In this document: one piece after another, positions 23,901 to 42,836 of the stretch
How the letters are laid out: every line of letters starts with the position of its first letter
How positions within the stretch are numbered: position 1 is the stretch's first letter
Position numbers and translations under genes: made by a program
DNA from: a virus
Reading direction: 5' to 3' (one strand)
Length of the DNA stretch: 43,739 bases
Virus record (IMG/VR): IMGVR_UViG_3300021139_000035
Span: 1-43,739 of that record
The notes under the pieces: model-generated
The model's input: only the letters and a program-made list of their open reading frames with translations
What the model was told of the DNA's origin: nothing
Database searches by the model: none

Positions 23901-26900
23901 TGGTCATCTAGCTCATTACCTGCTTCTAATTTCTTAGCATTGGCTTATGGCTCTGGTATTTACGTGGCAGTTGGTGGTACTGGTACTAGCCCAGCGATTG
24001 CATCAAGCGCAGATGGTGCTAGCTGGATTAACAGAACAGCAGTTGGTACAGTAACCTACACAGCAGTTGCATATGGTAATGGTTATTTTATTGCAATCGC
24101 AAGTGGTAGTACAGTAACAGCATTGAGCACAAACGGTGTTGCATGGGCGTTAGGCGGAGCTTTACCAAGTGCCGCTACATGGACAAGTATTACATACGGT
24201 AACGGACGTTTTGTTGCAGTAGCTAGCGGTAGTAACACAGTTGCTTATAGTTATAATCAAGGTACAACATGGTATGCAAGTACTAATGCAGGAAGTGTAG
24301 GTTTACCTTATGTACAAAACTGGAGCAAAGTACGTTACGGTGAAGGTCAATTTATGGCAGTAGCTACAAGCCCTGCATCAGTAACATTGACTGCAACTAG
24401 CGCAAGTGGTAATTTGGTAACATTAAACAGCGTTAGCAACTTAAACGTTGGTAACAGTTTAATTCCAACAAGTGTAACAGAATCTCCAACAGCTACAGCT
24501 ACAACTCACTCAACTGCAACCAGCGCAAGCGGTGCTATTATTACCAATGGTGTTTTAACAGCTAGCAATTCAACTGGTACATTGACTAATGGTATGCTAT
24601 TGACAAGTACTGGCGGTATTGTTGCTGGTACGTATATTCAAAGTACAAATACTGTTTCATTCAACAGTATGATTAACACTACTTTGATGACAGTATTCAG
24701 CGGTACCGCTCCAAGTATAGGAATGACCATAACTGGAGGTTCTTATGCAAGTGGTACATACATAACTGCTATAAACGTAGCATCAATTACTGGTTTTATT
24801 AGCAATGGTTCTTCAGGTACTAGCGGTACATTATTAACTCCGGTAGTAATTAATAGTGGAGCACCAAATACTTACATGTTAATTACTGGCGGCAGCACAA
24901 GTGCTAATACTTATATTAGTTCTAATACACAATTTTCTGCTACCGGCGGCAGTTTAACCAGTTCAACTTTAACATTAGGGTCAGTATCTGGTACTGTTGC
25001 AGTAGGACAGATGGTAAGTGGTACTGGTATTCCAGTAGGTACATATATTACTGCATTTGGTTCAGGCGGCTCGGGCGGTGGTGGTACATACACCGTTGCT
25101 GGTGCAAACATTCCGGTAGGAACCCCAACAGGAACTATTTCAGTGGTTGGTGTTGTATATAATTTGAATAATAGTCAATCAGTAGGTACTTCCGGTTCTC
25201 AAGTAACATTTACAGGAACAAGTTATAACGTAACTAATAGTCAAACAGTTGGTAGTGCAGGTGCGCAAGTTTCTTCAACTGGCACAAGTTATAACTTATC
25301 AGGCCCAACTGGTGCAAGCACTCAAACTCAGACCTCAGCAACTATTACTGGTACATTAGATTTAGTTACAGTTGGTAGCACTACAGGTATGACAATTGGC
25401 GAGCCAATATCGTTCTTATATAGTTCAGTTAATACTACATTGTCGGTTGTAAATAGTGCAAATAATTATCTAACGGTTGCTAGTACAACAGGTATGTCTG
25501 TTGGCACTAGTATTATCTTTACAGCAGTAACACAAAGTGGTTTGATATCTGCAACTTCTAGTACTGGCAACTTGATAACAGTAAGCAATACTACTGGACT
25601 TGTAGTTGGCGAAAGTATTGTGTTTACAGCAGTCACACAAACAACTACATTGACAGCAACTACTCCAAGTAGTTCTACAATGGTTGCTTATATCAGCGGA
25701 ACTACCCTATTTGTTGGTTCAGTTGGTTCAGGTACTGTTGCTGTTGGACAAGTTCTAACTGGTTCAACAACTGTAGCTGGAACATATATTGTTTCTAATA
25801 TTAGTGGTTCAGGTGCTGGTTCTCAATGGACTGTAAGTGTAAGCCAAACAGTGGGTTCAAGCGGATCACAACAGGCATTAACTGGAACTGGTAATTTGAT
25901 TACATTGAACACAACAACCGGTATGGTTGTTGGTGAATCATTCACAGTGGGTACAAACGTAGGCAACTTGCTAACATCAAGTACATATTATATTACTAAG
26001 ATTATTGGCAACCAAATTGCAGTTGGTACTAGTTCAGGAGCTACTAGCGATTTTACAGTATCTAATACAACTGGTCAAAGTGTATCAGTAACTGCTGGTT
26101 CAGTATTTGGTGGTATTACTAGCGGTAGTACATATTATGTAACAAGTATTCCAACACCAGGAACTAACGGTACAATTACAATCAGTACTAGTTATGGTGG
26201 TGCTAACCTTACATTAACAAATGCTACAGGATCATGGACATGGATAGCTGGTGCCGCATTTGGTAACTTATCAGCTGGAACAACTTATTACATTACAAGT
26301 ATTCCAACACCAGGAACAAACGGTACAATTACAATTAGTACTACAGTTGGTGGATCTACTTTTGTAGTTGGTAATAGTTCAGGCGGTGCATGGACAGCAC
26401 TTGTAGGTAGTGTATTTGGTAACTTAGTTTCAGGTAATACGTATTACATTACTGAAATTTTATCAGGTACTAACCAAATTGCTTTAGCAACAACTTATGG
26501 TGCAACCAGTAACTTTACACTAGTAACACAAACTGGTAGTTGGGCATCTACTGCGGGTAACATATTAGGTAATTTATCATCAGGTGCTACTTATTATATT
26601 GCAAGTATCAACAGCAATACTAATCAGGTAACATTAAGTGCAAGTCCTACATTATCACCAGTAGTAACATTAATAAATGATACAGGTGCATGGACTGCGG
26701 TGATTGGTAACAATTATGCGGCTACAAGTCCAGACGGTATTAACTGGAGTACACAACTGTTAGGTTCTTACAATAGTTGGAGTTCAACAGTATTTGGTAA
26801 TCCAATTAGTGCAACTTTAGGTGCGCAACCAACTTGGGTATCTATTAGTAGTGCTACAAATACAACTACAGCAGTAAGTACTCGAGCTGGTGCAACACCA

Positions 26901-29415: not shown

Positions 29416-31089
29416 ATGCCAATTACAAGTACCGTGGGAGGAAGTGTTGAGTTAAAAGGACTTGGCGGCGCTCACCCAGGAGTTGCACCAATAGATACCA
29501 GTGCAAGCACTGCGGCTGGATCCATCGGAACTATGACAGTATCATCCGGCGCCTGGGTAAGTTCAGGAACTACTCCACCAGGCTACCCATCTGGATATTA
29601 CCCTCTTAGTATTTCTAGTGTGTCGGGGCAACGTGTAGCATTTGATCCATTCGGACAAGGTGCAATTACATATAGCATTCCAAATGCAACTAGTGGCACA
29701 ATTAGTAGTGTGAGCGGAACTACAGTTACTATCAGCGGCAATACAAGTGGTATGAGCCAAGGTAGTGACTTTACAATCACGCTGCCTGGCGGCGGCACTG
29801 GTTCTAATAATTATGTATTTGGACAATTATATCCAGGAACATATTATGTTGCATCTGTATTAACCAGCAATCAAATAACTCTAGCAAGCAGTTATTCAAA
29901 CGCTATAGCTAATAGTCCTATAACATTTACTGGTACCTATAATACTAGTTATGGTTACACTGGTATGCAATATATCAGCGGAGGGTTGCCCAGTGGACTT
30001 ACATTTACTGCAAGTACTGGAACAGTGAGCGGAACTATACCAATTAACAGTAACTCAAATCCAGGTTACAATAATGGTATGATATTGAATTATCCACCAA
30101 CGGGCGGATTGTATTCAGGACAACCAGTTCCGTCTACCGCTTACGGATTCAAAGTTCGCGCTACCGATGCACTTGGCATTAATACTACGGATCGTACTTA
30201 CAGTATTAACTTGAGTGTGCCTTATGCATATCGTCAAGTTATTACTACAACATATCTACAAGCTGGTTATGCCAATAGTGCAGTTTGGCAAACTACTTGC
30301 CGCGTTACAAATTCAACAGACACTTCTATCGACTTAGGATCTGCAGGATATCAAGAAGTTGCCCATAATTATCAAATGAGCGCACACAACTATACACGCA
30401 GTTTTACATTTGGTGCGGCTGGAACTCATTGCGGTGCTGCCAGTAACGTTATTGCATTTAATATGCGCACTGAAACAGCTAACACTGCTGGTTACTCACG
30501 TAGTTATCCTGTAAGTCAAAACAACTGTTCTACCTTACGTCAAGAATATTACTTTGCATGGTGTACAAGTCCTGCAAGTGCAACTTGTTATGAAATGAAC
30601 CTATCAACCGAACAGGGTTATACTGCTCCAACTAGTTGTCCGGGAGGTAATGCATTGACCGGCAATAGCTGGGACGGTTACGGAGTTTGGATGAGTCAAA
30701 ATTATAATATGACTTATGCTACTCGTAGTGTTACAAGTCGTGGAGGTACTAATGTTTCAGGCGATGCCCAAGGTAAAGTAATGGAAGGTAAAATCAACGC
30801 TTATGGTGGTCGAGAAGGTTGTCCAAGTACTAACTGGCGCAGAACTGTTCAAAGTACTAACACTACAGTTGATGCCGCAGGCGCTAAACCCTATAACTCA
30901 GGCGAAGAAAACCATATGACTGGTCAAGATTGGGGGTATTGTGTTGGATTCTACGGCCCAGCCGGTCACGTTAACACTGCATACAAGTTTATCTATGCTA
31001 CAGAAGCTGGTTACGGCACTAATGCTAGTTTAGAAGCCAAAGGCGGCCACCCAGGAAATAGTTCAGGAACTTGTTGCTGGCGAGATTAA
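29416..31089 (+). CDS. Putative adhesin with Ig-like domain and cysteine-rich C-terminus
   Basis: A 557-aa protein, last of the fibre block. A putative Ig domain of the He_PIG type is visible: GAITYSIPNA, then GGLPSGLTFTASTGTVSGTI at residues 189-208. Its two halves are separated by a YYV-type module (residues about 91-185). RATDALGINTTDRTYSINLS follows. The C-terminal 260 residues contain all ten cysteines (295, 339, 371, 383, 391, 408, 469, 509, 553, 554) and many His, Trp and Tyr, and end in CCWRD. No other protein of the block is like this. It may be a receptor-binding tip stabilised by disulfides or metal. GGAG precedes the ATG. Confidence 0.65.
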   Translation: MPITSTVGGSVELKGLGGAHPGVAPIDTSASTAAGSIGTMTVSSGAWVSSGTTPPGYPSGYYPLSISSVSGQRVAFDPFGQGAITYSIPNATSGTISSVSGTTVTISGNTSGMSQGSDFTITLPGGGTGSNNYVFGQLYPGTYYVASVLTSNQITLASSYSNAIANSPITFTGTYNTSYGYTGMQYISGGLPSGLTFTASTGTVSGTIPINSNSNPGYNNGMILNYPPTGGLYSGQPVPSTAYGFKVRATDALGINTTDRTYSINLSVPYAYRQVITTTYLQAGYANSAVWQTTCRVTNSTDTSIDLGSAGYQEVAHNYQMSAHNYTRSFTFGAAGTHCGAASNVIAFNMRTETANTAGYSRSYPVSQNNCSTLRQEYYFAWCTSPASATCYEMNLSTEQGYTAPTSCPGGNALTGNSWDGYGVWMSQNYNMTYATRSVTSRGGTNVSGDAQGKVMEGKINAYGGREGCPSTNWRRTVQSTNTTVDAAGAKPYNSGEENHMTGQDWGYCVGFYGPAGHVNTAYKFIYATEAGYGTNASLEAKGGHPGNSSGTCCWRD

Positions 31090-31092
31090 TCT

Positions 31093-31105
31093 ACTAAATA
31101 TTCTA
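31093..31105 (+). promoter_or_regulatory. Possible T4-type late promoter
   Basis: ACTAAATATTCTA starts three bases after the previous stop codon. It contains the TAAATA core and matches 8 of 13 positions of the extended T4 late consensus. A ribosome-binding site (GAGGA, about 31118-31122) and the ATG at 31127 follow at suitable spacing. The position, at the border between the fibre block and a different gene group, supports it. Confidence 0.5.
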
Positions 31106-31126: not shown

Positions 31127-31990
31127 ATGATAGACAGGATCAAACAATTTAATGACAGAAGCGTAACAGTAGATTTGCAATCAGACACTAGTATGTTGTC
31201 TGAAACCGATAAACAACATGTTATTAAAGCATTGAACAAAGAATGGACCAATCCAAAATTCAAAATGCGTTGGTTTGTGGGTCAAGCACAGGTTACAATA
31301 TATGCCAAATATCGTCAATTTTTAATGGAATTAAAAAGTCGAGAAGAAGGTATTGAAGATCTCGAATATAAAATGGAACAATGGGAAATTGATATCGCTC
31401 GTCATGAAATGATTGCGCAAGAAGCTGTAGATGAACTAGATAAGCGATTGGCAAAACTTGAAATTAAAAAGTTAACACGAGATTTAACACGCAGTCGCCG
31501 TATTGTTGAAGGTTGGTATTTAGAGCGCCAGCTGTATTGTGATTTAATTAATGAGTTTTTAGCAAGTCCGGAAGCATTATTGCCAGATAATAGCGGAAGA
31601 ACTTATGCAGATATTATCAACACTGATGAAGAAGATATCTACGAAGAATTGCTATGGACACATAGATTAGCAAAACAAGCATCTTGCGATATATTATTTT
31701 ATGGAAAAATCAATAGTGGTAACATGGATGCTATTCTTAGCATGAATCCCGAGCAACAAGCGCAGACATTTGCCTTAGCTACAAATTTTAGCATGCAAGT
31801 TCAAAATTATCTGTTAGAATTACAGGATCAGGCACATAAACATGGATCTGCAGGCCTTTCTTTCAATAATGGAGATCTGTTGATACCTAAACAAACATTA
31901 ATGCCTAAGGCAACAGAAACAAATCTAGGTAACACAGAAACAACAAAAAATGACGAAGTCAAGGATATGTTAAATGTATATTCTATATGA
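31127..31990 (+). CDS. Hypothetical protein with coiled-coil segment
   Basis: A 287-aa charged protein, very different from the Thr/Asn-rich fibres before it. Residues about 60-135 are a long helix rich in Glu, Lys and Leu (ELKSREEGIEDLEYKMEQWE, then LDKRLAKLEIKKLTRDL) and probably form a coiled coil. A second helical part covers about 135-235. The last 45 residues are polar and probably flexible. There is no catalytic motif. The place directly after the fibres and the helical build would suit a fibre-assembly chaperone or connector, but this is a guess. It overlaps the next gene by 17 nt. Confidence 0.6.
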   Translation: MIDRIKQFNDRSVTVDLQSDTSMLSETDKQHVIKALNKEWTNPKFKMRWFVGQAQVTIYAKYRQFLMELKSREEGIEDLEYKMEQWEIDIARHEMIAQEAVDELDKRLAKLEIKKLTRDLTRSRRIVEGWYLERQLYCDLINEFLASPEALLPDNSGRTYADIINTDEEDIYEELLWTHRLAKQASCDILFYGKINSGNMDAILSMNPEQQAQTFALATNFSMQVQNYLLELQDQAHKHGSAGLSFNNGDLLIPKQTLMPKATETNLGNTETTKNDEVKDMLNVYSI

Positions 31991-32528
31991 ATCTAAAAGA
32001 CATAAAATAGAACAACTTAAAGACTATGGTAAATTTTGGTTTTATGTCATAGGATATATTGCCCCAGAAGATCAAACAACTGTTGATTTATTTGATTTAT
32101 CCTACACAGAAATTTCTCAAGAAGTAGCTGATTGTGATCTGTTAGCTCCATCTAATGATGGTGTAGCTATCGTCAAACAACTTACTGAATCTATGAAAAG
32201 AGCAGATTTTGTTGGCCCAACGGGTGTTAACTACACCGAAAACGATGGTAAAAAATTCTATTATCATTTAACAGAAGAAGACAAAATTAATAGTTGTACT
32301 TTACTTAGAGAAATAATGAAGTTACAAATCCGTAATCACGGTCACCGTAAAGATCCGGTAGAATTGGCAGCTTTGTCAACAGCTATTGATCAGCTGCCAA
32401 CAAACGATTTGAATATTACGCAAATGTTTATGAGTACTTATTTTGAATTTGAAACAGGTTATACACAATTTAAGACTAAAGTTCCAATTATCAATATTAA
32501 ATTCAAATATGACGGAGAAGGGTTCTAA
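31974..32528 (+). CDS. Hypothetical protein of the fibre-flanking pair
   Basis: A 184-aa mixed alpha/beta acidic protein starting MYILYESKRHKIEQL. Its ATG lies inside the end of the previous gene with AAGGAT upstream, so translation is probably coupled and the two products may act together. Visible segments include FWFYVIGYIAPEDQTTVDLF and a helical region around EEDKINSCTLLREIMKLQIR. It ends with a beta hairpin (KVPIINIKFKYDGEGF). I do not recognise the family. A strong terminator follows 24 nt after the stop codon, closing this transcription unit. Confidence 0.6.
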   Translation: MYILYESKRHKIEQLKDYGKFWFYVIGYIAPEDQTTVDLFDLSYTEISQEVADCDLLAPSNDGVAIVKQLTESMKRADFVGPTGVNYTENDGKKFYYHLTEEDKINSCTLLREIMKLQIRNHGHRKDPVELAALSTAIDQLPTNDLNITQMFMSTYFEFETGYTQFKTKVPIINIKFKYDGEGF

Positions 32529-32552
32529 CCAATTCACTTCTATAAAATTAAG

Positions 32553-32588
32553 AAAGATGCTATACTAAGTAAGATAGCATCTTTTTTT
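32553..32588 (+). terminator. Intrinsic terminator after the fibre-flanking genes
   Basis: AAAGATGCTAT (32553-32563) pairs perfectly with ATAGCATCTTT (32574-32584) around a 10-nt loop, and the right arm runs into a stretch of seven T. It follows the stop at 32528 and precedes the ATG at 32599. It therefore separates the structural genes from the enzyme cluster. Confidence 0.85.
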
Positions 32589-32598
32589 ACGGCTGTTT

Positions 32599-34281
32599 AT
32601 GTCCAAAATTTTTAGTATCCCAATTAATCCAAAACTGAATGTTGATCAATTTAATCAGTTTTATAAATTCTTATCTGATTATAAGGAGTACATTCGTGAC
32701 ATTTATTTTACCAGTCGCATAGCACCATTCATGCAAGATGCGATGGGCGATGTATTTGTTATACAAGAAGATCAGTCGCATCTTATTGAAACAGCACTAT
32801 ATATACAAAGAACTTTGGGTATTCCAATTAGTGCAACATTCAATAATATACAAGTTGCACCTACACAAAAAAATCTAGATATCTTTATTAAAAATTTTAA
32901 GACATTATATGATGCCGGTATACGTAGTGCGACGATTCCTCATACACACTGGATGGCAACAGGACAAATTAAAGCCGCATTTCCTGACCTTTATGTTAAA
33001 AATACAATATTACGAGAAGTAACTACCGCACAGGAAGTAGTTAATCTAGCACAATACGGTTTTGATTATATAAATCTTGATAGAGATTTGATGAGAGATC
33101 ACGATCGTTTACGAGAAATAAAAAAAGCAAAAGAATATATTAAGAAAACATTAGGTAAAGATATAGCAATTAGCTTGTTGGCAAATGAAGGGTGTGCTGG
33201 CGGATGTAGTATGATGGAAGAACACTTTCATTTTAACAATGCAAGAGAAGATGCAAACAGTCCGCAATACTTTAATGATACTATTAGCCGTGTAAGTTGT
33301 CCTAACTGGAATGTACAAGATTCGTCTATCTTTCTTAAACAAGCTAATTTTACTCCTTGGCGAGAAGACTGGGACGAATTTATTAACGATCTTGGGATAG
33401 ATAGTATTAAAATGCATGGTAGAGAAGGCATAACTAGATTGTTTGAAACTATGGAAATTGTTCGTAGATATGCAGCCGGTGAAGAATTTTTATATCCAGG
33501 GTTTGAAAGATATTTAGAAGAAACTAATCTTGTTGAAAAACCTATTAATATATGGCGAAATAAAATTAAAACATGTAGGTTTGAATGTTGGGATTGTAAT
33601 TATTGTGACAAAGTGTATGAAAAAAAATCTGATATAGAGTTTTCAGAACTAGTAAAACATGCCGCCGATTGTGTGTTACGATCAGGAGTACCAACTGTCC
33701 GTGTCAATGCCCCAGGATTGACCAGTATTAGAGTGCAAACTTTACTAAATTTACTAGCGCAGGGTGTAAATACATATTTAGAAATTGGTGCGGCACAGGG
33801 TGCAACATTTTGTGCAGTATTAAAAAATAACCCTATTAGGGCTATTGCCATAGATAATTGGCAACAAAATATACAACCGGCTAACGGGCAAGTTACTATG
33901 CCTAATAATAGTATCAACACTTTTATCAAAAATTTTGAACAGTACAAAGGAAAATCACAAATAAGTATTATAGATCAAGATCTATTTGATGTAGATGTAA
34001 CACCTTTTGCTAATTCGGTTGGCATGATGTTCTATGATGGTCCCCACGATAAAGAAGTTACAAAACGTGCAGTAGTACATTATGCACCGGCATTGACAGA
34101 TGAAGCCATAGTAGTATTTGATGATGCAAATTGGCCGTCAGTTGTAGCAGGCGCAAAAGCAGGTATAAAAGCGGCAGGTTTTGAAGTAGCTTATGAAAAA
34201 TTAATGTTAAATGACTTAGAAGATCCCAATGCTTGGTGGAATGGGGTGTTTGTTACCGTCATAAGGAGACTAAATGATTAA
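32599..34281 (+). CDS. U32-peptidase-like Fe-S domain fused to a SAM methyltransferase
   Basis: A 560-aa two-domain enzyme. Residues about 1-300 resemble the U32 TIM-barrel family: a YINLDRDL strand, NEGCAGGCSMMEEHF (Cys199, Cys203), SCPNW (Cys234) and DLGIDSIKMHGRE, matching the U32 signature around GIDS.KIEGR. U32 members such as UbiU/UbiV, TrhP and RlhA bind a 4Fe-4S cluster and act in hydroxylation of quinones or RNA. A second Cys set, CRFECWDCNYC (326, 330, 333, 336), precedes the C-terminal class I methyltransferase: motif I LEIGAAQG (394-401), acidic loop AIDNW, then FYDGPHD and VVFDDANW. The fusion is unusual. First gene of the seven-gene cluster; its end overlaps the next gene by 8 nt. 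The substrate is unknown. Confidence 0.7.
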   Translation: MSKIFSIPINPKLNVDQFNQFYKFLSDYKEYIRDIYFTSRIAPFMQDAMGDVFVIQEDQSHLIETALYIQRTLGIPISATFNNIQVAPTQKNLDIFIKNFKTLYDAGIRSATIPHTHWMATGQIKAAFPDLYVKNTILREVTTAQEVVNLAQYGFDYINLDRDLMRDHDRLREIKKAKEYIKKTLGKDIAISLLANEGCAGGCSMMEEHFHFNNAREDANSPQYFNDTISRVSCPNWNVQDSSIFLKQANFTPWREDWDEFINDLGIDSIKMHGREGITRLFETMEIVRRYAAGEEFLYPGFERYLEETNLVEKPINIWRNKIKTCRFECWDCNYCDKVYEKKSDIEFSELVKHAADCVLRSGVPTVRVNAPGLTSIRVQTLLNLLAQGVNTYLEIGAAQGATFCAVLKNNPIRAIAIDNWQQNIQPANGQVTMPNNSINTFIKNFEQYKGKSQISIIDQDLFDVDVTPFANSVGMMFYDGPHDKEVTKRAVVHYAPALTDEAIVVFDDANWPSVVAGAKAGIKAAGFEVAYEKLMLNDLEDPNAWWNGVFVTVIRRLND

Positions 34282-35800
34282 AAAAATTAAAAAAATTATA
34301 GTATTTGGTGGCGGCACAAGTGGATGGTTAACTGCGGCCTATATGGTTAAGAATCTTAATATACCAGCAGAAATAGTTTTAATTGAAGATGCTAGTGCTG
34401 GTCCCATCGGAGTAGGCGAAGGAACACAACCTTTTACTGCTAGATTTTTATATGAAGCTGGAATTCCTCCAAAAGACTGGATGAAATCAAGTCAGGCAGT
34501 ATTCAAATATGGAGTTGAAATTTCGGGATTTAACGAAGAACCGTATTTTGTAGACAACGATGTTCCTACAAACTGTATGATAGGGCAAGGTTTATTCACA
34601 AGCGATTATTTTGTAGACAGACCTTATAGTGAAGTAAGAGACTGGCACCCTGCATACCAACTAGCTAAAGCCAATGTTAGTAGTAAGTATGACGAATATC
34701 TAGATGCTAACCATGGCTCTGGACCCGAAAGCTACGGCGCTGTTCATTTCAATGCGTTTGATATTATCAAAACTATTAAAAATATTATTATAGATAAAAT
34801 TACTTACGTTGATACAAGGATTACAGATATCCAACAAGATAAAGATGGTATATCAAAATTAGTTGATCAGAACGGTAAAGAATATACAGCAGATTTATAT
34901 CTAGATTGCACTGGATTTTCTAGTTTATTAATAGAAAAAACATTAGGATCTCCTTTTACAAGTTATGCTCCTTGGTTGCCATGTGATAGTGCAGTTGCAA
35001 TGCCTACAGAATTTAAGGATCCTGTGAATGAAATGCACCCTTATACTAAGTCAACCGCAATGACTTCAGGCTGGCGCTGGACTATTCCTACGTTTACTCG
35101 CATTGGTAATGGATACGTGTATAGCAGTAAGCATTTGACTCCTGAACAAGCTGAACAAGAATTAAGAGAAAGTATTGGAGAATTTAATGCTCCAGCTAAA
35201 CACCTTAAAATGAAGTGTGGAGTTCATAAAGAAATCGCTGTAAAAAATGTTTGTGCAGTCGGACTAAGTGCTGGTTTTATCGAACCACTGGAAGCAACCG
35301 GTATAACTTTTACAACAGCCACAGTACAAAGTATTGCTGAGGTGTTAAATCTAAATGGAAATGTTTGGAATGATTACGCCAGAAAAAATCTTAATGCTGG
35401 TTTTTATGAAATGACTACTGAAATATTTGCGTTTGTATGGGCACACTATTATTTCAGTAGCAAAAATGACACACAATTCTGGCAAGATATCAGAAAAATG
35501 AAAATTTCTGATTTACCTAAAGAAGTACAAGATATATTAAATGTATTTTTAGAACGTCCATTGCCTTATATTTTCTTAAAACCAAACAGTATGTTTTGTA
35601 CTTTTCAATGGTTTACTATGTTGCATGCTGGCGGCGCTTATAAAAATGTCACCAGTAATTTAACTCCTAAACAAAAACAATATAGTAAATATTTTTTAGA
35701 TTCACACACTGCAAGAGTTAACCTAGCAAAAACAATATTTCCTAATCAATATCACTATTTAAGGTCTTGGTATAGTGATTGGGAATCCGAGGAGATCTAA
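34274..35800 (+). CDS. FAD-dependent tryptophan-halogenase-family enzyme
   Basis: A 508-aa protein of usual length for the family. The FAD-binding GGGTSGW is at residues 12-18 and GVGEGTQPF at 46-54. Lys78 in AVFKYG aligns with the catalytic Lys79 of PrnA and RebH. The halogenase signature W-x-W-x-I-P is intact (W267, W269, I271, P272), and Glu340 in EPLEATGI matches the conserved catalytic Glu. Family members use FADH2, O2 and chloride or bromide to halogenate an aromatic ring and need a separate flavin reductase, none of which is seen here. AAGGAG precedes the ATG, inside the end of the previous gene. The substrate could be free or protein-bound; neither is shown. Confidence 0.85.
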   Translation: MIKKIKKIIVFGGGTSGWLTAAYMVKNLNIPAEIVLIEDASAGPIGVGEGTQPFTARFLYEAGIPPKDWMKSSQAVFKYGVEISGFNEEPYFVDNDVPTNCMIGQGLFTSDYFVDRPYSEVRDWHPAYQLAKANVSSKYDEYLDANHGSGPESYGAVHFNAFDIIKTIKNIIIDKITYVDTRITDIQQDKDGISKLVDQNGKEYTADLYLDCTGFSSLLIEKTLGSPFTSYAPWLPCDSAVAMPTEFKDPVNEMHPYTKSTAMTSGWRWTIPTFTRIGNGYVYSSKHLTPEQAEQELRESIGEFNAPAKHLKMKCGVHKEIAVKNVCAVGLSAGFIEPLEATGITFTTATVQSIAEVLNLNGNVWNDYARKNLNAGFYEMTTEIFAFVWAHYYFSSKNDTQFWQDIRKMKISDLPKEVQDILNVFLERPLPYIFLKPNSMFCTFQWFTMLHAGGAYKNVTSNLTPKQKQYSKYFLDSHTARVNLAKTIFPNQYHYLRSWYSDWESEEI

Positions 35801-36234
35801 TGTTAAACCAACTAAATTCAAATTCGTATGCAACCTATACTGTAAAAAATAGACAGCCTAAGGGAGATAGTTACATAGATGCCAAAATTGATAAAGATCG
35901 ATATAAGCTAAGACGATGGATACAAACATTATTAGCAGATCGAGAAGTAATTGTTTTCTGGACTGAAGACGATAAAGATTATGTAATGATAGGAACTACA
36001 AATGTAAATCCAGGCGAGGGTTATGGAGAATTGCCAACTAATTTACCAACGGTAAAATGTAATATCAATGGTACTGAAGTAGACGAACCACAATTTATTA
36101 CATTTCATTGCGTACCAGGTAGAGAAATTGCTACAGTAGATGTTGATCACATAACTAAATTCATAGTCAGCATTGACGGACTAGTTGAATTAACAGAAAA
36201 AGCATTAAAGGAAGAAGCAAATGGTAAGGGATGA
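35800..36234 (+). CDS. Hypothetical protein in the modification cluster
   Basis: A 144-aa protein. The start chosen is the ATG at 35800, which shares its A with the stop codon of the halogenase (TAATG) and has GAGGAG 6 nt upstream; an upstream TTG in frame would add only seven residues. The sequence is mixed alpha/beta and acidic: YSIDAKI-like start (SYIDAKIDKDRYKLRRWIQT), EVIVFWTEDDKDYVMIGTTN, FITFHCVPGREIATVDVDHI. There is no known catalytic motif. Its place between a halogenase and a hydroxylase and the 14-nt overlap with the next gene suggest it works with them, for example as a substrate carrier or recognition factor. That is inference only. Confidence 0.6.
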   Translation: MLNQLNSNSYATYTVKNRQPKGDSYIDAKIDKDRYKLRRWIQTLLADREVIVFWTEDDKDYVMIGTTNVNPGEGYGELPTNLPTVKCNINGTEVDEPQFITFHCVPGREIATVDVDHITKFIVSIDGLVELTEKALKEEANGKG

Positions 36235-36793
36235 TTTTATCGGAGTGTTTGATAATATATTTTCTCCTCAAGAATGTGACGACATTATTGCCTATTATAA
36301 CGAGTTAAAAAAATTAAATCTTGTATTCAATCGTCCAGACAACGCCCACGATAAAAAAGATGAAACATTGTATTTGTTTGAACCAGATACATTGTATATG
36401 AAATCTACAAATCCTGTGATACAAACTATAATGGAAAGAGTTTGGAAATGTTATGCAGAGTATCAGGATACTTACAGCATTTTAAGATTAAAAAATGAAC
36501 AAGGCATCACAGGAATTAAAATTCAAAAAACTGAACCAGGTGGCGGATATCATCTTTGGCATTATGAAAATCAGGGAAGGATGCACTCTGATAGATTTTT
36601 AGTATTTCAAGTTTATCTTAATTCTGTAGAAGCTGGTGGCGAGACTGAATTTTTATATCAAAAAATACGAGTAAATGCACAACAAGGCAGAGTGGTGTTA
36701 TGGCCGGCAGGTTTTACACATACTCATAGGGGTAATCAACCATTAAGTGGTGACAAATATATCATTACTGGTTGGATTGAATACTTAAATTGA
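36221..36793 (+). CDS. 2OG-Fe(II) oxygenase, prolyl 4-hydroxylase type
   Basis: A 190-aa single-domain dioxygenase. The iron-binding triad is visible as His114-x-Glu116 (LWHYEN) and a distal His in FTHTHRGN (His169 most likely, His167 possible). Lys179 in GDKYIITGW fits the 2-oxoglutarate carboxylate contact. The double-stranded beta-helix core spans about 97-188, with a helical N-terminal part (SPQECDDIIAYYNELKK) typical of the P4H family. Related enzymes hydroxylate prolines or other side chains. AAAGGAAG within the preceding gene is the ribosome-binding site. Fibre-linked phages often carry such genes, but the substrate cannot be read from sequence. Confidence 0.8.
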   Translation: MVRDDFIGVFDNIFSPQECDDIIAYYNELKKLNLVFNRPDNAHDKKDETLYLFEPDTLYMKSTNPVIQTIMERVWKCYAEYQDTYSILRLKNEQGITGIKIQKTEPGGGYHLWHYENQGRMHSDRFLVFQVYLNSVEAGGETEFLYQKIRVNAQQGRVVLWPAGFTHTHRGNQPLSGDKYIITGWIEYLN

Positions 36794-36794
36794 T

Positions 36795-37976
36795 ATGAAA
36801 AAACGCTTAGGAATCATCGGATTAGGGTCTGCAGGTGTGTTGAGCCTAAGTTATTTTTGCGCACATTTAGATAATACTTGGGAAATTATTAGTATCAATG
36901 ATCCTAATGGAAAAATACTAGGTGTAGGCGAAAGTAGCAATCCAAGTTTTATACAAGCATTAGAAGCAGGACTCGGTTTTAATATGCACGAGGACGTTGA
37001 CAAACTTGATGCTACATATAAATTTGGAACTAAATGGAAATCTTGGCGAGATCAAGACTGGCTTGGACCACTGTTAGGCGGCAATACTGCTATTCATTTT
37101 AATAACTTTAAGTTAAAAGAATATGCTATTCCTAGATTACTAGCTAAATGGCCAACTAAATTTTCCGAACTACAAGGTAAGGTTGAACTATTAACTAACC
37201 ATGAAACTCATGTTGATGTTATTGTCGACGGCATGAGTTATAACTTTAACTATGTTATAGATTGTAGAGGATTTCCAACTAACTGGGATGATTATAATGT
37301 CTGTGACAACATGCCAGTAAATCACGCACTTGTACACAATAAACAAATACCTGGCGATTGGATGTATACTGGTCATCGAGCCCACAAAAACGGATGGATG
37401 TTTGAAATTCCGTTGACCAATCGACAAAGTTATGGATATCTGTTTAATGATACTATAACTAGTGTAGAGGATGCCAAGTCAGATTTTAGCCAAGAAATAA
37501 ATGTTCCTGTAGAAGAACTAGAAGGAATTGAATATAAATTCAAAAGTTTTTATACTACAAAATTACTGGACGGGAGAATTCTAAAAAATGGAAATAGAGC
37601 CATTTTCTTTGAACCTATCAGTGCTACAAGTCTATATATGTATGATCAAGCTAACAGAATATTTCTTGCTTATCTGAAAAATACCATAGATACACCAGAT
37701 TCAGTTAATAAAGAATTTACTAATATAGCCTCTGCCTTGCAAGAATTAATTTGTTGGTTTTATCACGGTGGAAGCATTTATGATACTGAATTCTGGCAAC
37801 AAACTAAAATCAAAACTGCTACTGTTGTTGCAAACAGTAAAATGATGCAAATTCTAAAGTCTAGCTATAAAGAATGGTTAGAAAAAGACAGTCCGATATA
37901 TGCCGATAAATTTTTCTTTGAGCCTCATTTAATGCTACAATTAGATAAAAATTTTCAATATAATTATTTCAAATGA
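36795..37976 (+). CDS. Halogenase-like flavoprotein with altered active site
   Basis: A 393-aa relative of the halogenase at 34274, about 115 residues shorter. It keeps the dinucleotide motif GLGSAG (9-14), LGVGESSNPSF (42-52) and Lys76 in ATYKFG. The W-x-W-x-I-P signature has become W201-M-F-E-I-P206, and the position of the catalytic Glu is Ser276 in FFEPISATS. It may therefore carry out flavin-dependent oxidation or hydroxylation, act on another substrate or serve as a partner of the intact enzyme. It follows the P4H-type gene by one base and overlaps the next gene by 4 nt (ATGA). Confidence 0.72.
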   Translation: MKKRLGIIGLGSAGVLSLSYFCAHLDNTWEIISINDPNGKILGVGESSNPSFIQALEAGLGFNMHEDVDKLDATYKFGTKWKSWRDQDWLGPLLGGNTAIHFNNFKLKEYAIPRLLAKWPTKFSELQGKVELLTNHETHVDVIVDGMSYNFNYVIDCRGFPTNWDDYNVCDNMPVNHALVHNKQIPGDWMYTGHRAHKNGWMFEIPLTNRQSYGYLFNDTITSVEDAKSDFSQEINVPVEELEGIEYKFKSFYTTKLLDGRILKNGNRAIFFEPISATSLYMYDQANRIFLAYLKNTIDTPDSVNKEFTNIASALQELICWFYHGGSIYDTEFWQQTKIKTATVVANSKMMQILKSSYKEWLEKDSPIYADKFFFEPHLMLQLDKNFQYNYFK

Positions 37977-38590
37977 CCTATAGACTAACTAATGATCCTT
38001 ATCTAACTGCCGCAACCATGCCGCCTTTTGCTAAATTGTCACAGGTGTTTACTGCTACAGAACTTGATAGAATGTGTGCTTATTTCTCTAGTAAAGGTAT
38101 TGAAGCCGGTCTTGTAGGTAAGACCGGTGGAGACACTATGGAATTAGAATTACGTAAATCAGGGATTAAAATGCACGAATACACAGCGGAAACATCGTGG
38201 ATTTTTGAAAGATTAAACGATGCTATAGAAAAAGGTAACAGTCATTTTTTTAGATTTAATCTCGTAGGTTATGATTATCTACAATATACCGAATATAAAG
38301 CACCTGATGAAAAATACGGCTATCATACAGATATGCCTTACGGACCAAATCATTCTTTAGAAAAACATCTAATGCGTAAACTTTCATTTAGTTTGATCTT
38401 AAGTGAACCGTCAGACTACGAAGGCGGCGAATTTGAATTTATGATAGAGTCAGATAAACCCTGGCCCATTCCACAAACTCGGGGAGATTTAATAATGTTT
38501 CCTAGCTGGTTATTGCATGAAGTAAAACCTGTAACCCGGGGTATACGTAAGAGTTTAGTAGGATGGGTGTTGGGGCCTAAATTTATATGA
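37973..38590 (+). CDS. 2OG-Fe(II) oxygenase, PKHD-type hydroxylase
   Basis: A 205-aa dioxygenase. The metal triad is His118-x-Asp120 in YGYHTDMP and His182 in WLLHEV. Arg192 in GIRKSLVGW would hold 2-oxoglutarate. EGGEFEF (150-156) and GDLIMFPSWLLHEVKPV (171-187) are characteristic of the P4H/PKHD group. It differs from the enzyme at 36221 in the Asp ligand and in using Arg rather than Lys, so it is a separate lineage and not a recent copy. Its ATG overlaps the stop of the previous gene and its own stop overlaps the next ATG, both as ATGA. Probably hydroxylates a peptide or small molecule. Confidence 0.82.
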   Translation: MTYRLTNDPYLTAATMPPFAKLSQVFTATELDRMCAYFSSKGIEAGLVGKTGGDTMELELRKSGIKMHEYTAETSWIFERLNDAIEKGNSHFFRFNLVGYDYLQYTEYKAPDEKYGYHTDMPYGPNHSLEKHLMRKLSFSLILSEPSDYEGGEFEFMIESDKPWPIPQTRGDLIMFPSWLLHEVKPVTRGIRKSLVGWVLGPKFI

Positions 38591-39165
38591 TAAAACGTTT
38601 TCCTTTATACCACAGTGATTTATTTGTATTAGAAAATATTGGCACAGATAATCAAGTAAACGCACTTGTCGAACAAATTAAAAAAGAAAAGCAACAATCT
38701 CCTGCAACAGATTTAACTAATCGGGGTTGCTGGCGTAGCATAAAATGGTGGAACGATGTTGATTGGTTAGGCCAGGCAGTTTGCACTTTAGCAGAAACAG
38801 CTAGTACACATTATAAAGAATTAGACCCTAATTTTGAAAAGGGATCTAAATTCAAATTAGGTATGTGGACTAATGTTAATGATCCTAACAGTAAAAATGT
38901 AATGCATAATCATGTTAGAGATGTGTTTGCCGCAGTCTATTATGTACAAGGCGAAGACACTGGTGATCTAAGACTTGTCAATGCAAGTAATACCATGCAA
39001 GATCTAAATCCTTTTTCTCCTTTTAGCAGAGATTTTAGATACGCTCCTAAAAATCGTAGTTTAATTTTATGGCCAGCATGGGTTCCCCATGAAGTAGAGA
39101 CCAATTTAAGTAATAAACAGCGCATCAATATTGCATTTAATGTAAATTTTGACAATGAACTATAG
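38587..39165 (+). CDS. Putative 2OG-Fe(II) oxygenase (TIGR02466-like)
   Basis: A 192-aa protein with the pattern of the third oxygenase group found in marine phages. It has MWTNVNDPNSKNVMHNHVRD, then AAVYYVQGEDTGDLRLVNA, then SLILWPAWVPHEVETNLS and RINIAFNVNF. His107/His109 and His168 are the likely iron ligands and Arg179 the 2-oxoglutarate contact. This is the last gene of the cluster; a 96-nt gap follows, with only a weak GTAT/ATAC hairpin near the stop. Three distinct oxygenase families in one operon suggest three different hydroxylation steps or sites. Confidence 0.75.
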   Translation: MIKRFPLYHSDLFVLENIGTDNQVNALVEQIKKEKQQSPATDLTNRGCWRSIKWWNDVDWLGQAVCTLAETASTHYKELDPNFEKGSKFKLGMWTNVNDPNSKNVMHNHVRDVFAAVYYVQGEDTGDLRLVNASNTMQDLNPFSPFSRDFRYAPKNRSLILWPAWVPHEVETNLSNKQRINIAFNVNFDNEL

Positions 39166-39261: not shown

Positions 39262-40317
39262 ATGGAAATTTTTAACTATTTAAGTGATGAGATTTATCTT
39301 TTTGTATTAATCTCTATTATGTTAGTTAGCGGTATTGCCAAGGACAAGAGCTTATTTGCTGGAACTTATGGATTTCTAAAAAGCAAATTCAAAAGTAATA
39401 GACTAGTTATTATGTTGTTAAGTTTTGTAAGTGGTATACTACCGATCGAAGGTCGTGCTACTGTATCAGCTGGTATATTAGATACAGCAACTGGCACTAA
39501 CGGAGATAATGCTAGTCGCAAAAAATTAGGCATTATTGACTTTTTGACCACGCACCATTTTTATATGTGGAGTCCAATTGAAAAACCAGTATTGTTGCCT
39601 ATGGCGGCATTTGGTTTAGGTTACAGTGCTTGGATTGGTATGCTATGGCCGTTACTATTAGTCAGTGCTGTGTTTATTGTTTCTTATTGCTGGTTAGCAG
39701 TTGACGAACATGAAGTAGTTATTTCGGAATGTCCAGAGTCTTCTACACTATGGGACTTTGTTAGGAATACATTACCGTTCTTAGCGGCCATTGTGGCTTA
39801 TATGTTAATGGGCGGTGAAGGCCCCGAAGCAGTATTTCCAGTATTTGGATGTTTATTAATTTATTATATTTGTATCACCAAAAGTTTTGACATTAAGAAG
39901 TTAAACAGTTATATTAACTGGACTACTGTTACAATAGTAGCAGTGGTATTTGCGAGTTCAGGCTATATGCAAGAACATCGCGCATGGTTTGAGGAAGTTG
40001 TTAAGAGTATTGGTTTGGATATGCATACTTTCAAAGGTGTGTTTTATATCAGCTTACTTACGTTTTTAGCAAGTTTCTCAATGGGGTCGGACGGCAAGTT
40101 TGCCGCCTTGACCGTTTTAATGGCAAGTGCCTTCGGTAAGGAATACTTACTGTGGTTCTTTGCTTTGGATTATTGTGGTTACTTGTTAACCCCAATGCAC
40201 GAGTGCGTTATGATAGGCAAACGTTATTTTGGTACCAGCCTAACTACATATTATACCGCACTTATAGCCTGGGCTGTTCTACTTCTATCAGTCGCAGGCG
40301 TTTTTACATTCTTATAA
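39262..40317 (+). CDS. DUF401-like polytopic inner-membrane protein
   Basis: A 351-aa protein with about nine to ten hydrophobic segments. The ATG at 39262 is preferred because AAAGGAAA precedes it; the longer reading starts with TTG and lacks such a site. Two family-type motifs appear in the two halves: ILPIEGRATVSAGILD (59-74) and GYLLTPMHECVMIGKRYF (306-323). They resemble the DUF401 patterns P..GGA..SAP..D and GYMLSPVH.CL....YF. DUF401 proteins are predicted carriers related to the ion-transporter superfamily; no substrate is established. It lies 11 nt before an outer-membrane barrel gene. A phage transporter of this type is unusual. Alternative: a membrane exclusion or lysis-control protein, less likely given the transporter-like motifs. 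Confidence 0.68.
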   Translation: MEIFNYLSDEIYLFVLISIMLVSGIAKDKSLFAGTYGFLKSKFKSNRLVIMLLSFVSGILPIEGRATVSAGILDTATGTNGDNASRKKLGIIDFLTTHHFYMWSPIEKPVLLPMAAFGLGYSAWIGMLWPLLLVSAVFIVSYCWLAVDEHEVVISECPESSTLWDFVRNTLPFLAAIVAYMLMGGEGPEAVFPVFGCLLIYYICITKSFDIKKLNSYINWTTVTIVAVVFASSGYMQEHRAWFEEVVKSIGLDMHTFKGVFYISLLTFLASFSMGSDGKFAALTVLMASAFGKEYLLWFFALDYCGYLLTPMHECVMIGKRYFGTSLTTYYTALIAWAVLLLSVAGVFTFL

Positions 40318-40328
40318 GAGGAAACAAA

Positions 40329-40913
40329 ATGAAGAAAATCGTAGCAATCTTAGCCCTAGCGGCTGTAACATCTGCTTTTGCAGACACTGGCATTAACGTT
40401 GAACTAGAACGTGAAAAGGATAAGTCAACAAACGCTTATTCTAACACAGTTAAAGTAGCACCTTTTACAACTATCGAAGGTTTCAAGGTTGATGTACAAT
40501 TAGGCGCAGAACGTCAAGACGGACAAGTAAATGGTAATAATAACCCATTGACTAATACAGCTGAAGCTCGTGTTCAAAAGATGTTTGAAGTTTATCCTGG
40601 TCTACATTTAGGCGGACGTTTAGGTGTTGGTGAAGTTTTCAACGGTGTTGATCAAGCTGGCAAGACAGTTGACTTTGGTTACTACACAGCTGAACCAAAA
40701 GCCGAGTATATGCTTACTGACAAATTGTCAGCATTGGCAAGCTGGAGATTCCGTGACAGCTTCAAAGATAACAATGAATATCTAACACGCACATGGAAAG
40801 CTGGTTTTGGTTACGATGTAACTAAGAAAGACTTAGTTGAAGTTAAGTACTTCAAAGAGCGTGGTGACACACGTTCAAACGGTGTTGCTTTAGAGTACAC
40901 ACGCGGTTTCTAA
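40329..40913 (+). CDS. Small outer-membrane beta-barrel protein
   Basis: A 194-aa protein. The ATG at 40329 follows AAGAGGAAA and starts a clear signal peptide, MKKIVAILALAAVTSAFA, with likely cleavage after AFA. The longer frame from a GTG at 40152 would run through the previous gene and is rejected. The mature part has alternating strands (FTTIEGFKVDVQLGAERQ, HLGGRLGVGEVF, GYYTAEPKAEYML, ALASWRFRDSF, TWKAGFGYDV, LVEVKYFKERG) and ends VALEYTRGF. A terminal Phe is the hallmark recognised by the BAM machinery. The size suits an eight- to ten-strand barrel. It may be a porin, a receptor mask or a superinfection-exclusion protein. Confidence 0.75.
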   Translation: MKKIVAILALAAVTSAFADTGINVELEREKDKSTNAYSNTVKVAPFTTIEGFKVDVQLGAERQDGQVNGNNNPLTNTAEARVQKMFEVYPGLHLGGRLGVGEVFNGVDQAGKTVDFGYYTAEPKAEYMLTDKLSALASWRFRDSFKDNNEYLTRTWKAGFGYDVTKKDLVEVKYFKERGDTRSNGVALEYTRGF

Positions 40914-40956: not shown

Positions 40957-41406
40957 TTATATTAAATCAACTAGATCGAATACAGTTTGAAGTTTGGTAC
41001 GAATTGTTTTGCTCGAAAAACTATTACGCAACCCTTGATGTAATGGTTTTGGAGCACGGTCTATTGTAGCCCACGACCAGCCCATGTGTTCGTCGCTTAG
41101 TATAGGTACAAACTCGGTATCTATTACACACAAATAAGTGTGAAAATTAAACACTCGGTCGTTGCTAACAAAAGTTTCAAGAGGAATTGTTTTGATTATT
41201 TCAGGGCAATGACCAATTTCTTCATTGATTTCTCTAACTAGACCTTGCCATGGTGTTTCACCTTGTATGTTGGTGCCACCAACTAACCCCCAAGTACCTT
41301 CATGTTTGCCATGAGCTTTTTGTAATAGTAAGAATCGTCGTGTAGATTTAGCGTAGAATAATGCTCCGCTACATACTATCTGCTCTGTTATAATTCTATT
41401 CTCCAT
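40957..41406 (-). CDS. Nudix hydrolase
   Basis: A 149-aa Nudix-family protein. The box G44-x5-E50-x7-REINEEIGH (58-66) carries all metal-binding glutamates (G..E..RE..EE.G). Upstream, RFLLLQKAHGKHEGTWGLVG gives the usual strand and substrate loop. Such enzymes cleave nucleoside diphosphates linked to other groups (NTPs, NAD-type compounds, ADP-ribose). T4 also carries a Nudix enzyme, NudE. The start lies 19 nt inside the end of gene 15, so translation is probably coupled. The stop codon falls within the right-hand T-run of the bidirectional terminator. The precise substrate cannot be deduced. Confidence 0.85.
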   Translation of the reverse strand: MENRIITEQIVCSGALFYAKSTRRFLLLQKAHGKHEGTWGLVGGTNIQGETPWQGLVREINEEIGHCPEIIKTIPLETFVSNDRVFNFHTYLCVIDTEFVPILSDEHMGWSWATIDRAPKPLHQGLRNSFSSKTIRTKLQTVFDLVDLI

Positions 41407-42836
41407 TGGCCTACTTCATACATTCCGTCAAAACTCTTGTTCCAGGAAATACCGTCCCATTTGTATTGAACTCCAGTGTATATATTCGTTTGCCAGATCA
41501 TGGTGTTAGTTTCTTGGCTAGCATTAAAAATTACTGTCCATTGACTACCGCTCCATTCTATAATATCATTAGCTAGAGCTACTAATGATCCCCATACTTC
41601 AGTAGTTATTCTAGTAGAACCTATATCTTCTATAATGAGATATCGAGTGCCAACAGATAAATTTGTTGGTGTATATGTTTGCGGATTAACAATAGCATCA
41701 AATGTTCCGGTACTGTTAGGTCTATAACTACCCGCACGATTATATGAAGGACTAATGTCTAAATTACCTTGACTATCGATACCAGTATTAGATACTAAAG
41801 TATCGGGATCCCAATTTACATGAAGTATGCTTGCATCAACCGGATCAACTGCAATAGTACCAACCACTTGTGTTCCATCGGTTTGAGTCAAATAAATTCT
41901 GCTAGATCCTGCAAAATATTGTCCAGGATAAGCACTAAAAACGCTGTTCCAATCTATAGGTTGTCCTACTCGTGCTGGAGCAGAATCTAAGGTTGGCTCC
42001 GGTGGATACGTTGAAGATCCAGGTGCTAATAAAATAACAGTACTAGCATAAACTTCGATTCTATAATCAGTAATAGTAGTGATTTGCTGACTCAGCAAAT
42101 CACTCATTGTAGTAGTTCCTGCTATTGGATCTGTTCCGAGTCCTTCTATATAAGTTCCGCTAGTTGTTTCTTTACCATATAAACTAGTAATAATTTTTGT
42201 AATAACTCCCAGATGTTTAACCTTAACAGGAGGATTTATCCATATAGGAGTTTTCAAAGTAAGTGTGGCTATTTCATTTGGAGTATCGTTACCAACAGGA
42301 ACCTGTCTGCTTGACCAATTTATATCTGTTAAATCTAAAACAGTTAAACTAGTCCAGTCAATATAATTGTCAGTCGTCTGTAATTCTAAACTTGGATTAA
42401 ACAATACAAGTATCTGTTCAAGTATTTGTAATTTTTGTTCGGTGCTACTTGACCATATGTCAACTTTGAAAGTTAGATCAAATGGTGTTGGCATTAGTCT
42501 TTCAACTGTATAGTTTTTGCCTTGCGATTGAGTATATAGACCGCTAGTACTATCTATATCTCTTTCTCTTATATGGACTTTGCCCACAAAAGTTTGGTCG
42601 CTTAATCGATCACGACTTAGTGCTAGGCTGGTTATATATACAGCAATACGAGGAACGCTATTCACTGCATTTTCACTGTTCATTCGTATGATGCTGGCTA
42701 CTTGTCGATCTGGATCTCCGTACATCACTGGTATCTGATGTAGAGAACCATCTCCATATTTGACTACAAAATTACTAAAAACACGAACAACTTGTGTAAT
42801 ATAACGTCGTATTTGGCCGTCGTAGAAAAATTGCAT
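41388..42836 (-). CDS. 15: Tail sheath stabilisation/terminator protein, T4 gp15-like
   Basis: A 482-aa homologue of T4 gp15. From memory, the T4 protein has the same order of landmarks: FFYDGQIRRY near the N-terminus, VFSNFVVKYG, IPVMYGDPDR, VPRIAVYITSLALSRDR, then PTPFDLTFKVDIWSSSTEQK with QILEQILVLFNP, and NWSSRQ...PIWINPPV. gp15 caps the tail tube and sheath and joins the tail to the head. T4 gp15 is about 270 aa; here an extra C-terminal part of about 210 residues includes GTRYLIIEDIG, NDIIEWSGSQW and TGVQYKWDGISWNKSFDG. The start overlaps the stop of the upstream structural gene by one base (TAATG), fitting the T4 14-15 order. Confidence 0.85.
   Translation of the reverse strand: MQFFYDGQIRRYITQVVRVFSNFVVKYGDGSLHQIPVMYGDPDRQVASIIRMNSENAVNSVPRIAVYITSLALSRDRLSDQTFVGKVHIRERDIDSTSGLYTQSQGKNYTVERLMPTPFDLTFKVDIWSSSTEQKLQILEQILVLFNPSLELQTTDNYIDWTSLTVLDLTDINWSSRQVPVGNDTPNEIATLTLKTPIWINPPVKVKHLGVITKIITSLYGKETTSGTYIEGLGTDPIAGTTTMSDLLSQQITTITDYRIEVYASTVILLAPGSSTYPPEPTLDSAPARVGQPIDWNSVFSAYPGQYFAGSSRIYLTQTDGTQVVGTIAVDPVDASILHVNWDPDTLVSNTGIDSQGNLDISPSYNRAGSYRPNSTGTFDAIVNPQTYTPTNLSVGTRYLIIEDIGSTRITTEVWGSLVALANDIIEWSGSQWTVIFNASQETNTMIWQTNIYTGVQYKWDGISWNKSFDGMYEVGQWRIEL

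Follow-up and report, generated by a model that had tools for sequence, protein, structure and literature searches.

A conserved halogenase, oxygenase and methyltransferase gene cassette behind the giant fibre genes of a putative T4-like phage, and a virion adhesion protein as its candidate substrate

Few unexplained "auxiliary metabolic" genes recur as often in T4-like aquatic phages as those for halogenases and 2-oxoglutarate (2OG) oxygenases. VirX1 of cyanophage Syn10 (PDB 6QGM) is an iodinating flavin-dependent halogenase that is reported to have an open active site and no known native substrate (PMC8407142). For the 2OG genes of cyanophages, a modulation of 2-oxoglutarate levels has been proposed (PMC3037559). 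Flavin halogenases can also act on tryptophan within peptides; SrpI does so at a C-terminal Trp, and ChlA, the substrate of the halogenase ChlH, ends in Leu-Trp-Asp (PMC12518702). In the literature searched, which excluded most subscription journals, we found no proposal that such phage genes modify fibres, and they are treated there as auxiliary metabolic genes. Here, we describe a cassette of seven plus-strand open reading frames, A to G, that fills positions 32599-39165 of the complete IMG/VR virus record IMGVR_UViG_3300021139_000035 (43,739 bp; the window), behind two giant fibre genes. The cassette is conserved, tied to the fibre genes and plausibly co-transcribed, and we propose that its products may modify a virion adhesion protein.

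Since the window encodes both a T4-type (gp15-like) tail sheath stabiliser, at 41388-42836, and fibre proteins of 2666 and 4405 amino acids, we take the record to be a fragment of an aquatic T4-like myophage; its nearest isolate relatives are distant and are mostly cyanophages. The cassette lies between the end of the fibre block (31089) and the stabiliser gene, a fibre-to-neck placement. Its genes are joined from A to G at spacings of -8, -1, -14, +1, -4 and -4 nucleotides (nt), and a gap of 96 nt separates G from the ATG of the next gene (39262). The preferred start of C is the ATG at 35800, which overlaps the stop codon of B as TAATG and gives the -1 junction; the alternative start, TTG at 35779, would change this junction to -22. 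On the left the cassette is preceded by a plus-strand terminator hairpin (32550-32585; a stem of about 14 bp followed by seven T, -15.7 kcal/mol) that a generic terminator scan did not pick up, and similar hairpins are found upstream of A in most relatives. An earlier note on this DNA had reported seven tightly joined genes between a strong terminator and a 96-nt gap, and this observation is confirmed in its coordinates, junctions and hairpin. The ratio of nonsynonymous to synonymous substitution rates (dN/dS), taken against two close relatives, is 0.03-0.13 for all seven genes and indicates purifying selection; the values are approximate, with dS above 1 in every pair, and all seven genes are nonetheless clearly maintained.

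B (34274-35800) and E (36795-37976) are flavin-dependent halogenases by family and by predicted catalytic motifs. Both score well above the PF04820 (Trp_halogenase) cut-off of 21 bits, B at 311.9 bits (E 1e-92) and E at 107.3 bits (E 1.2e-30). The flavin adenine dinucleotide-binding motif GxGxxG (G12, G14, G17) and the catalytic residues K78 and E337 are invariant in 24 aligned sequences that include B and E. The WxWxIP motif reads WRWTIP in B and WMFEIP in E, where the second Trp is replaced by Phe; E is the shorter protein and resembles the short halogenases of the S-SSM5/MS29 type. The closest solved relatives of B in the PDB are free-tryptophan halogenases. A close relationship of B to VirX1 was considered and rejected, since bacterial tryptophan halogenases outscore VirX1; a high VirX1 score was obtained with one alignment, which is biased by cyanophage rows that are likely close to VirX1. 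In two relatives, a further halogenase of full length (about 31% identity to B) is encoded downstream of the cassette on the opposite, minus strand (L016:15589-17076 and L018:16809-18287).

D (36221-36793), F (37973-38590) and G (38587-39165) belong to the 2OG-Fe(II) oxygenases, with profile scores of 41.1, 51.1 and 57.7 bits against a cut-off of 27. D matches 2OG-FeII_Oxy_3 (E 3.7e-10) and phrog_61 (2.3e-47). F is PKHD-like (PF13640, 2.7e-13; NF003974, 2.9e-18, below that model's cut-off), and G is of the 2OG-FeII_Oxy_5 type (PF13759, 1.6e-15) and TIGR02466-like (2.8e-14, again below cut-off). Both histidines of the HxD/E...H triad are kept in the alignment, and the acidic position reads HYE in D, HTD in F and HNH in G. 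The three proteins are related to solved prolyl hydroxylases, enzymes that act on proteins. C (35800-36234) has no Pfam or PHROG family; its predicted structure is that of a small protein of mixed beta type, weakly resembling phage proteins of SH3/WYL-like fold. Where the earlier note had named a halogenase, there are two, E being the second.

A (32599-34281) joins an unclassified N-terminal alpha/beta barrel to a C-terminal class I methyltransferase, and it matches phrog_1458 over nearly its full length. The C-terminal part scores 37.8 bits against the Methyltransf_24 cut-off of 26.3 (E 3.9e-9), and in the structural model it adopts a Rossmann methyltransferase fold whose best Foldseek matches are O-methyltransferases. 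The barrel holds seven invariant cysteines (C199, C203, C234, C326, C330, C333 and C336). The label "U32-type", given to this protein in the earlier note, could not be confirmed. In Pfam, A itself has no match to PF01136 (Peptidase family U32), and its best-scoring homologue reaches 14.4 bits (E=0.024) against a cut-off of 22.4. The invariant cysteines do not fit the U32 motif CX6CX15CX3/4C (PMC6747719), and hhalign of A against four E. coli U32 members was not significant (probability 1.7, E 0.028), with the matched segment in a plausible register. A phage "Peptidase" appears among the fold matches of the model. Like the U32 hydroxylases TrhP, RlhA and UbiU/UbiV, A has a barrel with conserved cysteines, a KxxGR-like motif and a weak in-register profile match; unlike them it falls under the family cut-off, spaces its cysteines differently and is fused to a methyltransferase. 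A canonical U32 identity is thus not confirmed by family score, cysteine spacing or profile comparison. Bacterial homologues of A were found at two loci only. The first looks like a phage contig binned into a metagenome-assembled genome (MAG); the second, in a Syntrophaceae MAG (L052:7589-8689), encodes the barrel alone, without the methyltransferase, and lies near genes for a sulfotransferase, an ATP-grasp protein and sulfate assimilation.

The earlier note would have counted a lack of joint conservation in related phages as a refutation, which the core of the cassette escapes. A core of A, B, G, C and D recurs in about 15 divergent IMG/VR phages, in which A is 58-91% identical, and it is always preceded by the fibre genes, a phrog_1409 gene and a further conserved gene. 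The usual order is A, B (directly or one gene off), G, an additional gene of 245 amino acids, C and D; the additional gene (phrog_7084) gave no Pfam match and no useful PDB match. E and F are limited to the nearest relatives and scattered cases. Membership and order differ among relatives, with extra 2OG or halogenase genes coming and going, and the A-B adjacency and the group of A, phrog_1409 and phrog_1417 persist down to 53-60% protein identity. A is found in 123 records of isolate cyanophages, and phrog_1409 likewise in 123 with the same breakdown by organism, so that the two sets are presumably identical. In the records searched, phrog_1409 and phrog_1417 are both found wherever A is, apart from one incomplete contig (G005); phrog_1409 is absent from six relatives that lack A, some of which match phrog_1417 weakly and then over its N-terminal part alone. 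Furthermore, 2OG genes cluster both at A and at full-length halogenases. A set of 13 such halogenases has 28 of them within 6 kb, where 7.3 would be expected, and 10 copies of A have 16 where 3.6 would be expected. Neither count was reached in 5000 simulations, which treat related phages as independent and so give optimistic p-values. The same simulation found no significant 2OG clustering at short halogenases (p 0.18).

On the fibre side, these conserved partners include the most specific candidate for a substrate. The phrog_1417-like virion-protein candidate (29416-31089, plus strand; 557 amino acids; E 9.1e-21) ends in ...SGTCCWRD. In 16 phages with halogenase B, where this gene often occurs as two tandem copies, all 25 distinct copies end in WRD, WRDN, WAD, FHRD or FQRD; none of ten copies from nine B-free phages has a WRD-type end. 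The nearest B-free relative, L019, is known from a 10.5-kb contig, and its halogenase status covers that contig only. No other open reading frame with a WRD-type C-terminus was found in the fibre regions scanned. Gene C is present in the phages whose phrog_1417 protein carries the terminal Trp (contig G008 ends before the place of C) and absent from the four F[HQ]RD phages. On the tree of A, the WRD-tag pattern and the C pattern are each explained by one change; these covariations of sequence, WRD tag with B and C with Trp, therefore come from a single clade, are unreplicated and are best regarded as suggestive. Both giant fibre proteins, of 2666 (6921-14921) and 4405 (14949-28166) amino acids and both encoded on the plus strand, carry carbohydrate-binding module (CBM) 5/12-type Trp/Tyr repeats near the N-terminus, about seven in the former (PF02839 E 4.2e-37, 7 stretches) and about six in the latter (2.1e-26, 6 stretches). 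The repeats follow the pattern WxGxW...Y...V.Y.G..Y.C of a chitin/glycan-binding module type. Each of the six cassette-bearing contigs tested has them, and elsewhere they are at most weak, a distribution confounded by clade. As a universal halogenase substrate the repeats are rejected, for they are missing from the halogenase-bearing isolates. The WRD, C and CBM5/12 patterns all emerged during exploration, without prior prediction.

We infer the following mechanism, from a protein as substrate through site, reactions and their order to benefit. The cassette proteins would be made together with the tail-fibre block and would chemically alter a virion adhesion protein, either ahead of assembly or in its course, most specifically the phrog_1417 protein at or near its conserved C-terminal ...WRD, with the giant CBM5/12 fibres as a second candidate substrate. 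B would add halogen to an aromatic residue, perhaps together with E; D, F and G would add hydroxyl groups to residues, and the part of A would be a methylation or an oxidation. The phrog_1409 protein (31127-31990, plus strand; E 2.6e-36), the constant partner of A, and C could serve as assembly or recognition helpers, and flavin reductase would be supplied by the host or by an unsampled part of the phage. The benefit might be a changed binding or stability of the adhesin. Such post-translational modification is favoured because the core always stands behind fibres and the isolate islands described below lie beside fibre or neck genes; because phrog_1417 and phrog_1409 accompany A, the WRD end tracks B, and C tracks the Trp; because the catalytic residues of the halogenases and both triad histidines of the 2OG enzymes are retained and 2OG genes cluster at halogenases; and because peptide Trp is a known halogenase target (PMC12518702) and the 2OG enzymes have prolyl hydroxylases among their relatives. 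Several points weigh against it. Shared ancestry may be the cause of the WRD and C correlations. One clade has the F[HQ]RD tag, without Trp, despite B; CBM5/12 repeats are missing from the halogenase-bearing isolates; S-SSM5, MS29 and P-TIM40 have their short halogenase at a distance from the fibres; a transporter gene recurs beside A; and no flavin reductase was identified. On balance, we regard the chances that the cassette encodes protein-modifying enzymes acting on a virion adhesion protein as evenly divided. The narrower proposal, that halogenases, hydroxylases and methyltransferase act on a defined C-terminal WRD tag and that phage particles bear residues with added halogen, hydroxyl or methyl groups, is tentative and on present evidence improbable. 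Of the roles that the earlier note had offered, the best fit is that in which a fibre or an adhesin is modified, and those in RNA modification or in a small halogenated compound are less supported; its interpretation as a whole is partly supported.

The recurring transporter bears on the strongest alternative, in which a small halogenated or hydroxylated molecule is made or tailored from host metabolites and moved by the product of the next gene, a DUF401-type membrane transporter (39262-40317, plus strand; PF04165, 5e-10). A gene of this type neighbours A in several loci (among them L019:6965-8005 and L024:2878-3912), also where there is no halogenase, all nine isolate records with the transporter are phages that also carry A, and the free-tryptophan specificity of B's solved relatives would suit a small substrate. 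The cassette holds no scaffold-making genes (non-ribosomal peptide synthetase, polyketide synthase or precursor pathway), many cassettes have no adjoining transporter, and the linkage to fibre genes, phrog_1417 and phrog_1409 is tight; we consider a small-molecule product doubtful. The variable membership and order, with 2OG and halogenase extras gained and lost, would also be expected if the site behind the fibres were a hot spot of gene exchange where auxiliary genes of unrelated function gather, for example genes that alter 2-oxoglutarate levels as has been proposed (PMC3037559). The overlapping genes, the low dN/dS and the persistence of the A-B pair and of the A-phrog_1409-phrog_1417 group at 53-60% identity make such a collection unlikely. 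A role at the host surface, where a glycan, lipid or outer-membrane component rather than the virion would be modified in superinfection exclusion or receptor alteration, could draw on a nearby gene at 40329-40913 whose product resembles an outer-membrane barrel and begins with what looks like a signal peptide (PF13505, slightly under cut-off). Sugars and lipids are also possible substrates for Methyltransf_24 and 2OG enzymes. The absence of a glycosyltransferase or lipid enzyme from the cassette, its position within the late virion block and its covariation with a virion-protein candidate render this role rather unlikely. We know of no RNA role for halogenases, and the fibre-linked position and the failure of A to reach U32 membership by score or cysteine spacing also oppose a reading in which A hydroxylates and methylates RNA in U32-like fashion with the others assisting, which we judge highly improbable despite its weak in-register similarity to a family whose members TrhP and RlhA hydroxylate RNA (PMC6599085).

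Other features of the window concern expression and neighbouring genes. The T4 late promoter TATAAATA is absent from both strands of the whole window (1-43739; 0 found against 8.2 expected), so that late expression cannot be argued from T4 late promoters; the complete lack looks like avoidance. A weak late-promoter-like CTAAATA (31094-31100, plus strand) precedes the phrog_1409 gene by 33 nt. The loop region of the terminator hairpin contains CTAAGTA, 34 nt ahead of A, and [AC]TAAGTA also stands ahead of A in several relatives, which is no more than a hint of a promoter signal. Searches of the window for tRNA and Rfam families gave no match. Between phrog_1409 and A lies a gene conserved in position (31974-32528, plus strand) without a Pfam or PHROG match, and a NUDIX hydrolase gene (40957-41406) follows the transporter and barrel-like genes.

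Two groups of isolate phages offer parallels to the cassette. The first comprises fibre-to-neck islands in Kyanoviridae: syn9 (gp41-gp60), P-TIM40 (gp046-gp054) and Sf-CH11 (92-96), all cyanophages, and the pelagiphage HTVC008M (gp068-gp079). These looser islands share with the present cassette the joining of full-length PF04820 halogenases, one or two in number, to several 2OG oxygenases; unlike it, they lack A, phrog_1409, C and CBM5/12 fibres and hold other 2OG subsets, and their halogenases are about 26-32% identical to B. The earlier note had seen in the combination a dedicated pathway beside the fibres, which stands as a conserved, fibre-tied cassette, but the combination itself is already present in these four phages. 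In similar cyanophage islands (for example L042:21913-22431 and L042:23036-24159), genes labelled "DNA endonuclease V", "ferrochelatase" or "minor coat protein" look 2OG-like, and Pfam 2OG matches cover some of them. The second group is the A-bearing cyanophages P-HM2, Syn19, P-RSM1 and S-CAM4, in which, as here, the fibres are followed by phrog_1417, then phrog_1409, then A. Most of them have 2OG genes close by, and they differ in having no halogenase and no WRD tag on phrog_1417.

If the cassette does modify a virion adhesin, the published metabolic readings, 2-oxoglutarate modulation and metabolite halogenation, would be wrong for the fibre-linked copies, and the natural substrate of viral halogenases such as VirX1 would become directly testable. 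VirX1 and B are both viral flavin-dependent halogenases, B by prediction from sequence, with no special closeness between them. The peptide-modifying halogenases SrpI, ChlH and MibH are, like B and E, of the PF04820 type and provide a precedent for halogenation of peptide Trp; their substrates are natural-product precursors, whereas the substrate proposed here for B and E is a large virion protein. As a general kind, halogenase/2OG islands near fibres can already be seen in public genomes. This locus contributes a core cassette that is conserved, the partners that constantly go with it, and a testable, specific proposal for the substrate, to which we attach a low probability.

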